Source: Nereida sp. MMG025 (lineage in GTDB: Bacteria; Pseudomonadota; Alphaproteobacteria; Rhodobacterales; Rhodobacteraceae). Taken from it: a stretch of DNA of 64,000 bases. Positions 19,013-52,642 of this stretch are shown here, one piece after another. Every line of letters starts with the position of its first letter. Positions within the stretch are counted from its first letter, which is position 1. The stretch is taken from assembly GCF_021654165.1 (NCBI RefSeq), contig NZ_JAKFZN010000003.1, positions 248,001 to 312,000 on the forward strand. The letters run 5' to 3'. Below the pieces are notes generated by a model. The model worked only from the letters and a program-made list of their open reading frames with translations, ran no database searches and was not told the DNA's origin. A program made the translations under genes and the position numbers.

Positions 19013-19142
19013 TTGCCTGATCTTTCGAGCTGCTGCGCCTTACGTTATACGCGCTGACACGCGAATGTCATGGGACAATATGCACAATCTGCACCGCGGC
19101 TTCGAACTTGACCCCTTCGGCCTTTTCAATCACACAAACTGC

Positions 19143-19332
19143 GATGGTTCCCACACGCCGAATATGCGTTTGGGATGAAAAGGGAATACGGTGAGGAAGA
19201 GCCACTTCGCGCCAAATCCGTAGCTGCCCCCGCAACTGTGAGCGGTGAGTGACCCCGATAGATACCACTGGACCCGATCGGGTTTGGGAAGGTTCGGGCA
19301 AACTTTGATCCGCAAGTCAGGAGACCTGCCAT
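19143..19332 (+). promoter_or_regulatory. Cobalamin (adenosylcobalamin) riboswitch
   Basis: The sequence shows the conserved parts in order: GATGGTTCC at the 5' end, AAAGGGAATACGGTGAGG, GCTGCCCCCGCAACTGTGAGCGG, and the closing B12 box AGTCAGGAGACCTGCC at 19315-19330. It lies about 135 bp before the DUF1636 gene that opens the corrinoid-uptake operon. The established role is to switch off expression when coenzyme B12 is bound. Confidence 0.96.
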
Positions 19333-19467
19333 CTCGCGGCATGAAACTGCCGTTGTTTTAACTTTAGCCAGACGGGGGGTCTGGAAGGAAGGCCATGATG
19401 GACAGGCACGCCCCTTGTGTCTGCATCATGTCTGACTTTTCGCCCCGCCCGTATCGCGGAGGGCGAT

Positions 19468-37553: not shown

Positions 37554-37937
37554 ATGAAAAAGACATTCACACTGGCAGCCGCTTTGGTGGGCCTTGCGGG
37601 TATGGCCAGCGCCGATCCTGTCTTGGGCACATGGAAAACCCAAGTCGATGATGGCAATTACGCCCACGTGAAGATGAGCAAATGCGGTAGCAAGATCTGT
37701 GGCACGATCGCACAGGCCTACAATGCGCAAGGCGCCTGGGAGAGCGACAACGAGGGCAAGAAACTGGTCTGGGACATGGTCGCAGATGGGTCGGGGAACT
37801 ACAGCTCTGGCAAGATTTGGCAGCCTTCCACAGACAAGACCTATCGTTCGAAAATGAGCCTTTCGGGAAATACCCTGAAGGTGTCGGGATGTGTCGGCCC
37901 GATTTGCAAAAAGCAAACATGGAGCCGCGTGAACTAA
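37554..37937 (+). CDS. DUF2147 secreted protein, paralogue 1
   Basis: This 127-residue protein has a signal peptide (MKKTFTLAAALVGLAGMASA-D) and the DUF2147 core: VLGTWKTQVDDGNYAHVKMSKCGSKICGTI, then GKIWQPSTDKTYRSKMSL and CVGPICKKQTWSRV, with two cysteine pairs. GGGAGGAG precedes the start. It lies on the opposite strand inside the his cluster and ends with a strong terminator. The function is unknown. Confidence 0.88.
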   Translation: MKKTFTLAAALVGLAGMASADPVLGTWKTQVDDGNYAHVKMSKCGSKICGTIAQAYNAQGAWESDNEGKKLVWDMVADGSGNYSSGKIWQPSTDKTYRSKMSLSGNTLKVSGCVGPICKKQTWSRVN

Positions 37938-48680: not shown

Positions 48681-49271
48681 CTAAAGCGCGGTGCGCCAAA
48701 TCGGGATCAGGCTGGCCACCAATAGGGCAGCCATTGCCACGTTGAACAGCTGCAAGAGCCGCGGTGTCCGGAGCCACGTTTTCAGTGTCGCCCCAAGGAG
48801 GGCCCAGAGTGTCACGCAAGGTGTGTTGATCAGCGGTAAGACCACTGCGACCAAAACAACTCCGCCCCATGCGGTTTCAGGCGGGGCAAACAGGGCCAAT
48901 GCGTTCAGATGCATGGCCCATGCTTTGGGGTTCACCCATTGAAATGTTGCAGCCTGCACAAAGCTGAAGGGCTGCCCGCGTGTCTGCGCTGTCGAAGGCG
49001 GTGCGGCTGTGGCGACGCGGTAGGCCAGCCATAGCAAATAGGCTGTCGCTCCCGATTTCAGGACCAGATGCGCAGCGGGCATGATGGCAAAAACCTGCAT
49101 CAGCCCCGCGCCCAAGCCCAGAATCATCACCGCGTGTCCAAAGCTGACGCCCAAAATATGCGGCACCGTGCGGCGCAGACCGAAGTTTGCGCCGCTGGCA
49201 AAAAGCATCACGTTATTGGGGCCGGGGGTCACCGTGCTTGCGATGGAATAGGTGATCAAGGGCCAGAGCAT
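48681..49271 (-). CDS. LysE/RhtB-family amino acid exporter, paralogue 1
   Basis: This 196-residue protein has six helices and the LysE signature TPGPNNVMLFASGANFGLRRTVPHILG near residues 15-40 (PGPNN core), then FQWVNPKAWAMHL. It is directly behind a second, similar gene in the same orientation (6 bp gap). Both probably export amino acids or derivatives; the substrates are unknown. Confidence 0.9.
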   Translation of the reverse strand: MLWPLITYSIASTVTPGPNNVMLFASGANFGLRRTVPHILGVSFGHAVMILGLGAGLMQVFAIMPAAHLVLKSGATAYLLWLAYRVATAAPPSTAQTRGQPFSFVQAATFQWVNPKAWAMHLNALALFAPPETAWGGVVLVAVVLPLINTPCVTLWALLGATLKTWLRTPRLLQLFNVAMAALLVASLIPIWRTAL

Positions 49272-49277
49272 GCAGCT

Positions 49278-49889
49278 TTAGTGCGGGGCAGACAGCCCTG
49301 TCGTCAACATCGGATACAGCGTGGCCACCAGCAAAAGCGCCATCGTTATATTAAACGCACGCAGGCGGGCGGGGGTGCCAAGCCAGGCTTTGACCTGCAC
49401 GCCGAGATAGGCCCAGGCGCTGACAGACGGAAAATTCACCGCCGCAAAAACAACGGCCACAGCGACGGCGCCCCATGCGCCCCATTCAAGCGGGGCGAAT
49501 TGGGTCTGTGCGGTCAGGGCCATATACCACGCTTTGGGGTTGACCCATTGAAAGGCGGCCGCCTGCAAGAAGGTAAAGGGTGTCGCGGTTGCCTCTTTGT
49601 GCGCGGGTGGTGCGGCATTGGCCACTTTCCATGCCAAAAACAACAAATAGGCGGCCGAGGCGACTTTCATAATTGTGTAGGTGACAGGAAAGGCTTCGAA
49701 CAGTTGCAACAACCCAAGCCCCACAAGGCTGACCATGAATGCGTGGCCAAGCGAAATACCTGCCATATGCGGCAGCGTGCGGCGAAATCCGAAATTCGCC
49801 CCGCTGGCCAGCAACATCAAGTTGTTCGGACCAGGTGTGATGGAAGACGCAACGGCAAAGCCTGCCAGCGGAAGGATAAAACTAAACAT
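49278..49889 (-). CDS. LysE/RhtB-family amino acid exporter, paralogue 2
   Basis: This 203-residue protein has the same SITPGPNNLMLLASGANFGF and FQWVNPKAWYMAL blocks as its downstream neighbour, indicating a tandem duplication or a two-subunit exporter. It is divergent from an Lrp-type gene 72 bp away, a common regulator for such exporters. Confidence 0.9.
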   Translation of the reverse strand: MFSFILPLAGFAVASSITPGPNNLMLLASGANFGFRRTLPHMAGISLGHAFMVSLVGLGLLQLFEAFPVTYTIMKVASAAYLLFLAWKVANAAPPAHKEATATPFTFLQAAAFQWVNPKAWYMALTAQTQFAPLEWGAWGAVAVAVVFAAVNFPSVSAWAYLGVQVKAWLGTPARLRAFNITMALLLVATLYPMLTTGLSAPH

Positions 49890-49961: not shown

Positions 49962-50414
49962 ATGACGGATTTTGACCAAATTGACCGCAAGATATTGCGC
50001 GCCCTTTTAACCGATGGGCGGATAAGCAATCTGCATCTGGCTGAAAAAGTCGGGCTTTCGCCCTCTGCATGTTTGCGCCGTGTGCAGGAACTTGAACGGA
50101 TCGGAGTGATCAAAGGGTATCGTACTGTTCTGGACGGTGCGCAGATGGGGGTGGGGTTTGTGGCCTATATCGCCGTGGGGCTGTCAAACCATACCAAGGC
50201 CAGCCAAGAGGCGTTTGAACGCTCGATCAGTCGCGCCCCAGAGGTGGTCGAATGCCACAATATCACAGGCACGGTGGAATATCTGTTGCGGGTCGAGGCC
50301 AGCGACCTGACCGCTTACAAGCATTTTCATACGGAGGTTTTGGGGGTTCTGCCGCAAGTGAACGCCATCACATCATATGTGGTCATGGGCTCGCCCAAAG
50401 ATCTGCGGGCATAG
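49962..50414 (+). CDS. Lrp/AsnC-family transcriptional regulator
   Basis: This 150-residue protein has an N-terminal helix-turn-helix (FDQIDRKILRALLTDGRISN, VGLSPSACLRRVQELERIGVI) and a RAM effector domain (FVAYIAVGL, VVECHNITGTVEYLLRVEASDL). It is divergent from the LysE pair and probably activates it in response to an amino acid. Confidence 0.93.
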   Translation: MTDFDQIDRKILRALLTDGRISNLHLAEKVGLSPSACLRRVQELERIGVIKGYRTVLDGAQMGVGFVAYIAVGLSNHTKASQEAFERSISRAPEVVECHNITGTVEYLLRVEASDLTAYKHFHTEVLGVLPQVNAITSYVVMGSPKDLRA

Positions 50415-50423
50415 GGCGGACAT

Positions 50424-50517
50424 AAAAAAAGCGGCGATGCTAGGGAGGAGGAAAGCATCGCCGCTGTTGAACAGAACTACCCTAGGGAGGAGGAAAAGGG
50501 GCTCTGATCTGAAAAAC
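50424..50517 (-). ncRNA. CcsR/cuckoo-like small RNA with two CCUCCUCCC loops
   Basis: On the minus strand, just after the DUF1127 stop, are two hairpins. The first (50506-50472) pairs CAGAGC and CCCT with AGGG and GTTCTG around a loop with TTTCCTCCTCCCT. The second (50464-50431) is a perfect 11-bp stem GCGGCGATGCT / AGCATCGCCGC around TTCCTCCTCCCT, followed by seven T. In Rhodobacter sphaeroides the CcsR sRNAs, with CCUCCUCCC loop motifs, are co-transcribed with a DUF1127 gene. Motif, structure and neighbour all agree. Confidence 0.85.
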
Positions 50518-50733
50518 TTATTTGCCGTAGGCCGCTTCGAATGCGACCGACTTGATCATGCCGCGGTTCAGGCCAAGATCGGCTAGATCCGCACTCGACA
50601 ACATGCCAAGCTCGTTTAGGGTGTTGCGATACAGGCGATACTTTGTGTAGCGCGTTGTCAGTGTTTGTTTCGCGTCACGCAGAAAATCGACCAGTGGGCT
50701 GTAGCCCTGTGTATTTGTATTTGTATGTGCCAT
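50518..50733 (-). CDS. DUF1127 small protein (CcaF1-like)
   Basis: This 71-residue protein has a basic helical segment (RDAKQTLTTRYTKYRLYRNTLNEL in two parts around YTKYR) and the DUF1127 core LGMLSSADLADLGLNRGMI. Small DUF1127 proteins bind RNA in several alphaproteobacteria; CcaF1 of Rhodobacter sphaeroides affects maturation of the linked CcsR sRNAs. The same arrangement here supports this role. A stress (RpoH-type) promoter would be expected upstream, but I could not identify one confidently. Confidence 0.88.
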   Translation of the reverse strand: MAHTNTNTQGYSPLVDFLRDAKQTLTTRYTKYRLYRNTLNELGMLSSADLADLGLNRGMIKSVAFEAAYGK

Positions 50734-50936
50734 GTCTTTTACCTCAGTGCAGTGTGTTTCGCTGCTGTTGATCCGAAGTTAGGGTGCATGCTGCGATTGC
50801 ACAACTGACAATGCTGCATTGCAGCTATGCGCCTTGTGCAAACCACAAATTTACAAAATGCCCAATAAATCAGCACCTGCTGCCTTGCGGTGCCAGCACC
50901 AGCCGCTACATGCAAATGGACAAACGGAGCATGCGC

Positions 50937-52022: not shown

Positions 52023-52178
52023 GGCAGGGCGCCAAGGTGTGGCTTCGACCTATGGGAAATCATGGGTCGGGGGTGGCTTTCTGCCCAAAGTGATTCGTTA
52101 AATTGCCGGTTTTTGCATCTGTTTTCCGCCAAGTGCGTGAGAACAAAAGAAAAACACCTGCGTAAGTCTCAAAATAAA

Positions 52179-52203
52179 TGGGATTTTTTGGGCGTGGATG
52201 GGA
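52179..52203 (+). promoter_or_regulatory. MraZ operator: three TGGGN boxes at 10-bp spacing
   Basis: TGGGA (52179-52183), TGGGC (52189-52193) and TGGGA (52199-52203) are each separated by 5 bp. This is the direct-repeat layout that MraZ binds to repress its own dcw operon. It lies 440 bp before mraZ, so the operon promoter is probably just downstream, near the AT-rich 52220-52266 stretch (for example TAAAAT at 52261). Confidence 0.8.
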
Positions 52204-52269
52204 ACGCTGCGCTTCCTCTACATATTGTATAGCCTTGCAGTCATCACACAATAAGTTGGCTAAAATAGG

Positions 52270-52587
52270 GTCGCGTCCTGTCTAGATGTGGTATCTGACC
52301 CCTCTAGGACACAAGGTATTCCCGCATTAGCCCACACAAAACCATTGCGTCCCATAATATCCCATGCCATTCATAGTTCATCGAAAGAACGGGCATACAC
52401 AAAACAAGGGGCATTCATAAGAACCCCACATAGGCGAACCGAAAAGGTTTCATACAGGCACCCGCTTTTTTCGAACAAAGAGATCCGGCGCGCGAGCGAG
52501 CAGACATCCCCCCAGGTGGCGCGCGCAGTCGGACATCCCGCGAGGGACCGGCGGATCGATCAGTGGCAGCAGATCGATCCGCCTTTT
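52270..52587 (+). ncRNA. UpsM-like leader RNA of the dcw operon
   Basis: The 620 bp between apbC and mraZ hold no gene. The dcw transcript should start shortly after the MraZ boxes and run through this leader to a strong terminator before mraZ. In Rhodobacter sphaeroides the long dcw leader yields the abundant sRNA UpsM by such premature termination. Position, leader length and terminator match. The 5' end is a guess. The 52490-52550 part has further GC-rich inverted repeats and two GACATCCC copies. Confidence 0.65.
52550..52587 (+). terminator. Terminator in the mraZ leader
   Basis: A perfect 12-bp stem, GGCGGATCGATC / GATCGATCCGCC with a 10-nt loop, is followed by TTTT. It ends 55 bp before the mraZ start, so dcw expression needs readthrough. 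Confidence 0.85.
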
Positions 52588-52642
52588 CATTTTCAGGGCC
52601 CTGATTGCAAGCGCGGCCCGACAATTAAGGAGCCGATACCAG

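Follow-up and report, generated by a model that had tools for sequence, protein, structure and literature searches.

Is the short stretch behind a DUF1127 gene in this DNA a small RNA of the CcsR/cuckoo kind, and what would control its synthesis? The first part of the question goes back to a first-pass annotation, which described two hairpins with CCUCCUCCC in their loops right after a DUF1127 gene. In the window (the whole 64-kb stretch of DNA that was analysed), the motif positions and the fold bear out this description, and the locus is laid out as follows:

50827-50840, minus strand: upstream LysR-site-like element TGCACAAGGCGCAT, of the form TGCA-N6-GCAT, which runs on as GCATAGCTGCAAT to 50818
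50788-50801, minus strand: second element TGCAATCGCAGCAT, also TGCA-N6-GCAT, 39 bp downstream of the first and overlapping the -35 element and the spacer
50776-50804, minus strand: predicted RpoH-like core promoter, with TTGTGC at 50804-50799 and CCTAACTT at 50783-50776 (alignment of relatives)
50518-50733, minus strand: DUF1127 gene of 71 aa, ccaF1-like (PF06568, 37.6 bits against a cut-off of 23.3)
50424-50517, minus strand: predicted ~90-nt sRNA within the 3' UTR that follows the DUF1127 gene, with probable ends (Rfam alignments, covariance model R2)
50472-50506, minus strand: hairpin 1, with CCUCCUCCC in the loop at 50493-50485 (fold, and covariation in six predicted pairs)
50430-50465, minus strand: hairpin 2, an intrinsic terminator with a 12-bp stem and the loop CCUCCUCCC at 50451-50443 (fold z -7.2, covariation)
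50423-50429, minus strand: T tract of the terminator (sequence)

The short DUF1127 gene and the sRNA unit share a strand, and the first CCTCCTCCC motif begins 24 nt past the stop codon of the gene. A genome scan with the window's DUF1127 protein as the query found no relative. On the far side of the terminator lies the gene of an AsnC/Lrp regulator (49962-50414, plus strand), whose stop codon is ~10 bases from the sRNA end, so that the gene and the sRNA are convergent. The same gene is divergent from a LysE-type exporter gene, which stands in tandem with a similar ORF at 48681-49889 on the minus strand. About 600 bases separate mrp from mraZ (52023-52642, plus strand); in R. sphaeroides, the sRNA UpsM is reported to arise from a 5' UTR in front of the dcw genes. 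A cobalamin riboswitch (Rfam RF00174, 130.9 bits) is also present in the window, at 19128-19347 on the plus strand.

The CCTCCTCCC motif occurs on the minus strand of the locus at 50493-50485 and 50451-50443, and its count of three in the window compares with an expectation of 0.33 and was reached by 0 of 100 shuffles. In the 3.13-Mb genome TCCTCCTCCC is found only three times, always in the window and twice at this locus; by the exact motif, therefore, the genome holds one unit, and the single unit of two hairpins in the first-pass annotation was counted correctly. The third TCCTCCTCCC (17701-17692, with CCTCCTCCC at 17700-17692) has no motif repeat in its neighbourhood and was rejected as a chance occurrence. 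A covariance model with the window in its training set (R1) gave one genome match at E <= 0.01, with 150 of the 560 first-look candidates scored. The 98 nt from 50517 to 50420 fold into two hairpins that expose the motifs in their loops, with -35.2 kcal/mol and a z of -8.2, which none of 200 shuffles equals. Taken by itself, hairpin 2 has a z of -7.2 and its 12-bp stem is followed by 7 T, which makes it the strong terminator that had been proposed; hairpin 1 alone is modest (z -1.8, with 11 of 200 shuffles equally good).

In a permissive search of 471 bases, two Rfam models align over their full length with the predicted sRNA: ar14 (RF02344) at 50517-50425, with 42.2 bits against a cut-off of 58.8 (E 1.5e-6), and CcsR1 (RF02791) at 50515-50426, with 41.4 bits against a cut-off of 65.3 (E 7.7e-9). 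Neither ar14 nor CcsR1 is listed for the window at the curated Rfam gathering cut-offs, and because both cut-offs are missed we file the locus under the wider cuckoo/CIN1 kind only. The three-hairpin layout described for ar14 members is not seen here, where two hairpins are folded. Matches of ar7 (29.0 bits against 60) and sX13 (16.8 bits against 50) at the same place are weak and were taken as shared loop sequence, and weaker ar14 matches at two other places in the genome (L002 and L003), which have neither CCTCCTCCC nor an R2 match, were discarded as chance. The locus does have the features of the cuckoo/CIN1 kind, that is, CCUCCUCCC anti-Shine-Dalgarno loops in both hairpins, stems of variable sequence and a short DUF1127 gene preceding them. 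In R. sphaeroides, the CcsR RNAs are reported to be co-transcribed with the 71-aa DUF1127 protein CcaF1, an association labelled CIN1 (PMC10253847). The proposed CcsR/cuckoo identity is thus supported by the architecture, the loop motif, the gene linkage and covariation, and, as judged from its sequence, the locus is a one-unit member of this already known CcsR/cuckoo (CIN1) kind.

The covariation was obtained from alignment A1, which comprises the window and 21 of 30 relative loci; L013, L016, L017, L018, L020, L027, L029, L033 and L040 were omitted as secondary places, for unusual order, or as incomplete or of doubtful orthology. Among the resulting 22 units, 16 of the 17 predicted pairs show compensatory change, a pair being counted when at least one sequence has both sides altered with pairing kept. 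Because the exact motif served to fetch the relatives, the loops are in part bound to look invariant in the alignments, but the stems are unaffected by this choice. Model R2 was trained on the 21 relatives with the window left out to avoid circularity, and it matches the window at 50519-50416 on the minus strand with 72.9 bits (E 4.6e-18 over 125 kb), and no other place in the 64-kb window reaches E <= 0.1. The stems thus vary while the structure is kept, both by covariation and by R2. In the covariance-model check suggested at the outset, R2 and the full-length Rfam alignments agree with the cuckoo reading, but the ar14 and CcsR1 cut-offs of Rfam are not reached. R2 also detects units in loci of Cereibacter changlensis, Rhodobacter kunshanensis and Paracoccus, and in a genome of the same genus (G081) that keeps the operon and was missed by the exact pattern because its second loop is altered. 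An Aurantimonadaceae MAG (L106) has a weak R2 match of 27.2 bits behind a DUF1127 gene; the weak matches in L105 (minus strand, 17.2 bits) and L118 are noise or degenerate units.

Paired exact motifs occur in 217 of the 295 family genomes, which bears on the conservation of the loop motif in relatives expected in the first-pass annotation; in G081 the second loop is altered. The reversed control of the paired-motif pattern has matches in 41 of the 295 genomes (hand count), mostly those with many units; CCCTCCTCC is contained in the CCCTCCTCCTCCC loops, which bears on these matches, and G058 has a reversed-control match but no pair. The number of exact pairs per positive genome ranges from 1 (53 of 217, hand count) to 25 (G165). 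Three of the seven fetched one-pair loci have just two motifs (L011, L012 and L038), which shows that one-unit loci are present elsewhere in the family, while L017, L031 and L033 hold 3 to 5 motifs, so that one exact pair is not always one unit; the seventh, L040, is cut by a contig end. The linkage to the protein gene is also widespread: a DUF1127 match was found in 27 of the 30 fetched cuckoo loci (tblastn E<1e-3, with the search confined to the fetched loci), gene and units are same-stranded in 23 of 23 measured loci, and the first loop lies 18-33 nt past the stop codon in 19 of these 23. The order differs in L027 and L037. As in the window, mrp is nearby in 17 of the 30 fetched loci.

As to control, the aligned upstream regions contain a conserved block in front of the DUF1127 genes that was absent from the first-pass annotation. 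The consensus over 20 rows reads TGCA-N6-GCAT-n-GCaGCAtTg, 12-13 nt, TTGTGCA-N2-cGCAGCAT and a loose -10 element, and in the window the block occupies 50842-50776 on the minus strand. The form TGCA-N6-GCAT is present in 24 of 28 upstream regions against 0.085 expected from letter shuffles. Two copies are found in 15 of the 28 rows (the window and 14 of 27 relatives), always 39 or 40 bp apart; those of the window (50840-50827 and 50801-50788) have the 39-bp distance. Across the whole window the form is counted eight times, with two of these in the block. The strict upstream pattern fits 20 of the 28 rows, window included, in regions taken from script-chosen start codons (a distant start was chosen for L015). 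Among the eight rows that fail, a genome-wide pattern match lies beside the cuckoo locus in the genomes of L012, L015, L020 and L034; no such match is seen for L017, L027, L033 and L037.

The genome-wide pattern, GCATRGCNGCAWTG-N9-15-TTGTGC, occurs in 173 of the 295 family genomes, mostly once, and once in the window's genome; the reversed pattern occurs in none. Block and pair are found together in 150 genomes, the pair only in 67, the block only in 23 and neither in 55 (Fisher p 1.6e-9, uncorrected for phylogeny). In all 27 genomes for which both places are listed, the block and the cuckoo locus lie within 2 kb on one contig, and the strict block pattern is missing in 15 of the 42 genomes with listed cuckoo places. 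Five named Rhodobacteraceae loci carry the block, and the DUF1127 gene, cuckoo units and block are combined in Cereibacter changlensis, Rhodobacter kunshanensis, two Paracoccus and one Rhodobacteraceae MAG; the pattern was not found in the two named loci outside the Rhodobacteraceae. In G128 (L125, L031), a block is followed by a cuckoo array in a locus without a DUF1127 match, so that the block accompanies the RNA even without the protein gene. Five genomes (G048, G094, G168, G215 and G258) have two or three block-pattern matches each, which may point to other genes that carry the element.

A site of the TGCA-N6-GCAT form has been described for a LysR-type regulator at a related sRNA. Sinorhizobium LsrB is reported to activate NfeR1, the founding ar14 RNA, from such a site at -72 to -60 or -57 (PMC10746234), and here a start placed by assumption near 50770, seven bases past the -10 element, would put the upstream site at about -70 to -57. 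The Brucella VtlR motif is given as CAATGCAGCCATGCA, and VtlR is reported to act on DUF1127 genes there (PMC12595884); of the 15 positions in the reverse complement of this motif, TGCATGGCTGCATTG, 14 match the family consensus and 12 match the window. The box reported for Agrobacterium VtlR, GCAT-N3-TG-N3-T (PMC7486931), fits the window at 50830-50818, but it is exact in only 2 of 28 rows, window included, and is counted 10 times across the window. We consider it fairly probable that a VtlR/LsrB-type LysR regulator directly targets the ccaF1-CcsR (CIN1) operon across the Rhodobacteraceae through the two TGCA-N6-GCAT sites. A LysR regulator that drives anti-Shine-Dalgarno sRNAs and DUF1127 proteins would then be an old alphaproteobacterial circuit, its two kinds of target here united in one operon and coupled to an RpoH-like promoter. 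That the exact LsrB form is found in two copies with constant spacing strengthens this reading. A limited literature search, which did not include the main CcsR papers, found no LysR control of ccaF1-CcsR, although such control may be in print.

A LysR protein of this genome, encoded at 526710-527615 of contig C1, is 51% identical to the trxB-linked LysR protein of another alphaproteobacterium, the next best LysR protein of the genome reaching 34%, and this LsrB-like protein carries LysR domains. Its gene is not beside trxB in this genome, as a synteny test showed, unlike the arrangement reported for the VtlR class (PMC7486931), and the LysR tree, which includes 2 of the 8 LysR loci of the genome, is poorly resolved. 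The LsrB-like gene is found in 288 of the 295 family genomes, so that its presence discriminates little. Of 31 genomes whose LsrB-like copy is diverged (best E weaker than 1e-135), 26 lack cuckoo pairs, which is likely a matter of phylogeny.

The core promoter may suffice without such a regulator. The sRNA could be real and the promoter depend on RpoHI/RpoHII alone, with the block serving another protein or an extended promoter contact rather than a VtlR/LsrB-like site. An RpoHI/RpoHII promoter is indeed reported for ccaF1-CcsR of R. sphaeroides (PMC10253847), the core GTTGTG-N16-CCTAACT resembles the RpoH2 consensus of Sinorhizobium, CTTGCC-N15-16-CCTATCT (PMC4843759), and the rarity of the exact Agrobacterium/Brucella box form points the same way. 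However, the block begins 38 bp upstream of the TTG and extends into the spacer, and the paired sites at their fixed distance of 39-40 bp in 15 of 28 rows have the form reported for LsrB (PMC10746234). We regard control by RpoHI/RpoHII alone as unlikely.

Overall, the locus is very probably an operon of the ccaF1-CcsR type (CIN1) in its one-unit form; its expression, processing, sigma factor, regulator and targets we infer as follows. One promoter, joining the RpoH-like core (TTGTG-N16-CCTAACT) to a pair of TGCA-N6-GCAT sites, of which the first is centred upstream and the second over the -35 element, would give the DUF1127 transcript, whose 3' UTR would hold the two hairpins and end at the second, and a VtlR/LsrB-type LysR regulator would act at both sites. 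RNase E, with some role for the DUF1127 protein, would cut near the stop codon and release the sRNA of ~90 nt. The anti-Shine-Dalgarno sequence of each loop would block the translation of other mRNAs by pairing with their GGAGG-rich ribosome-binding sites. The course would thus run from induced transcription through cleavage to a two-loop sRNA that occludes strong Shine-Dalgarno sequences. The CcsR RNAs are reported to be cut from the ccaF1 transcript by RNase E, and the sources differ on the effect of CcaF1, which is said to promote CcsR maturation (PMC10253847) and, in excess, to interfere with it.

Possible targets were sought in the window, among the 97 start regions of ATG ORFs of at least 120 aa, real or not, with a query string that includes stem bases of hairpin 1 besides the loop and so favours some lower-ranked duplexes. 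The best in-window duplex (-18.4 kcal/mol, nine pairs, against a median of -7.4) is formed with the DUF2147 gene at 37554 on the plus strand, in whose Shine-Dalgarno sequence AGGGAGGAG nine bases are complementary to the loops. We suggest this gene as the best candidate target in the window. The DUF1127 gene's own start gives a duplex of -9.6 kcal/mol.

The loops might also act as general decoy anti-Shine-Dalgarno sequences, or as landing sites of the DUF1127 protein, instead of repressing particular mRNAs. Their sequence resembles the ribosomal anti-Shine-Dalgarno sequence and recurs in the units, and CcaF1 is reported to be an RNA-binding protein (PMC10253847). However, the loops of NfeR1, which carry the same motif, are reported to pair with the translation start region and to silence ntrB and two ABC-transporter mRNAs through that motif, independently of Hfq, and the CcsR RNAs are said to target flhR mRNA and to interact with Hfq. 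We consider a decoy or landing function rather improbable. We find it very improbable that no trans-acting sRNA exists and that the hairpins only close the DUF1127 mRNA, one as a stabilising stem and the other as a terminator, as the strong terminator directly behind the gene would allow. Against this, the stems vary in a compensatory way and the loop motif keeps returning, the units are multiplied to as many as 26 motifs in one fetched locus (L020), and the G128 array follows the promoter block, with 148 nt to its first loop, in a locus with no DUF1127 match.

Among the known systems, CcsR1-4 of Rhodobacter (Cereibacter) sphaeroides with ccaF1 share with this operon the two CCUCCUCCC-loop hairpins that immediately follow a same-stranded DUF1127 gene of 71 aa. 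Here the CcsR1 model (RF02791) aligns from end to end but stays at 41.4 bits against its cut-off of 65.3, and there is one unit here in contrast to four in R. sphaeroides. Cereibacter changlensis, a congener of R. sphaeroides, has 12 motifs and the promoter block. In L020, the locus of G165, most of the 26 CCTCCTCCC motifs form an array at ~1501-2671 with a hairpin every ~140 nt, an extreme expansion. NfeR1/alpha-r14 of Sinorhizobium meliloti (RF02344) has the same loop motif in each hairpin, and the TGCA-N6-GCAT form from which LsrB is reported to activate it (PMC10746234) is found twice before the operon here. Unlike this operon, NfeR1 has three hairpins and a reported sigma-70 signature, and DUF1127 has 0 occurrences in the main text of the NfeR1 paper (PMC10746234). 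In the VtlR/LsrB regulon of Agrobacterium and Brucella, a LysR regulator is reported to act on sRNAs and DUF1127 genes, and GCATAGCTGCAAT of the window may be a counterpart of the boxes GCAT-N3-TG-N3-T (PMC7486931) and CAATGCAGCCATGCA (PMC12595884). The AbcR RNAs and DUF1127 genes are reported as separate targets there, whereas the sRNA and the DUF1127 gene form one operon here.

With this sRNA, a known family gains one more genome, and a one-unit genome offers a simpler setting for the function of the loops than a four-unit cluster. Through the promoter block it can be tested directly whether the anti-Shine-Dalgarno sRNAs of the Rhodobacteraceae are under one LysR regulator, in the way that LsrB acts in Sinorhizobium. 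If the LysR reading is true, redox or metabolic control would be placed on top of the stress sigma factors, and the length of the array would set the dose.
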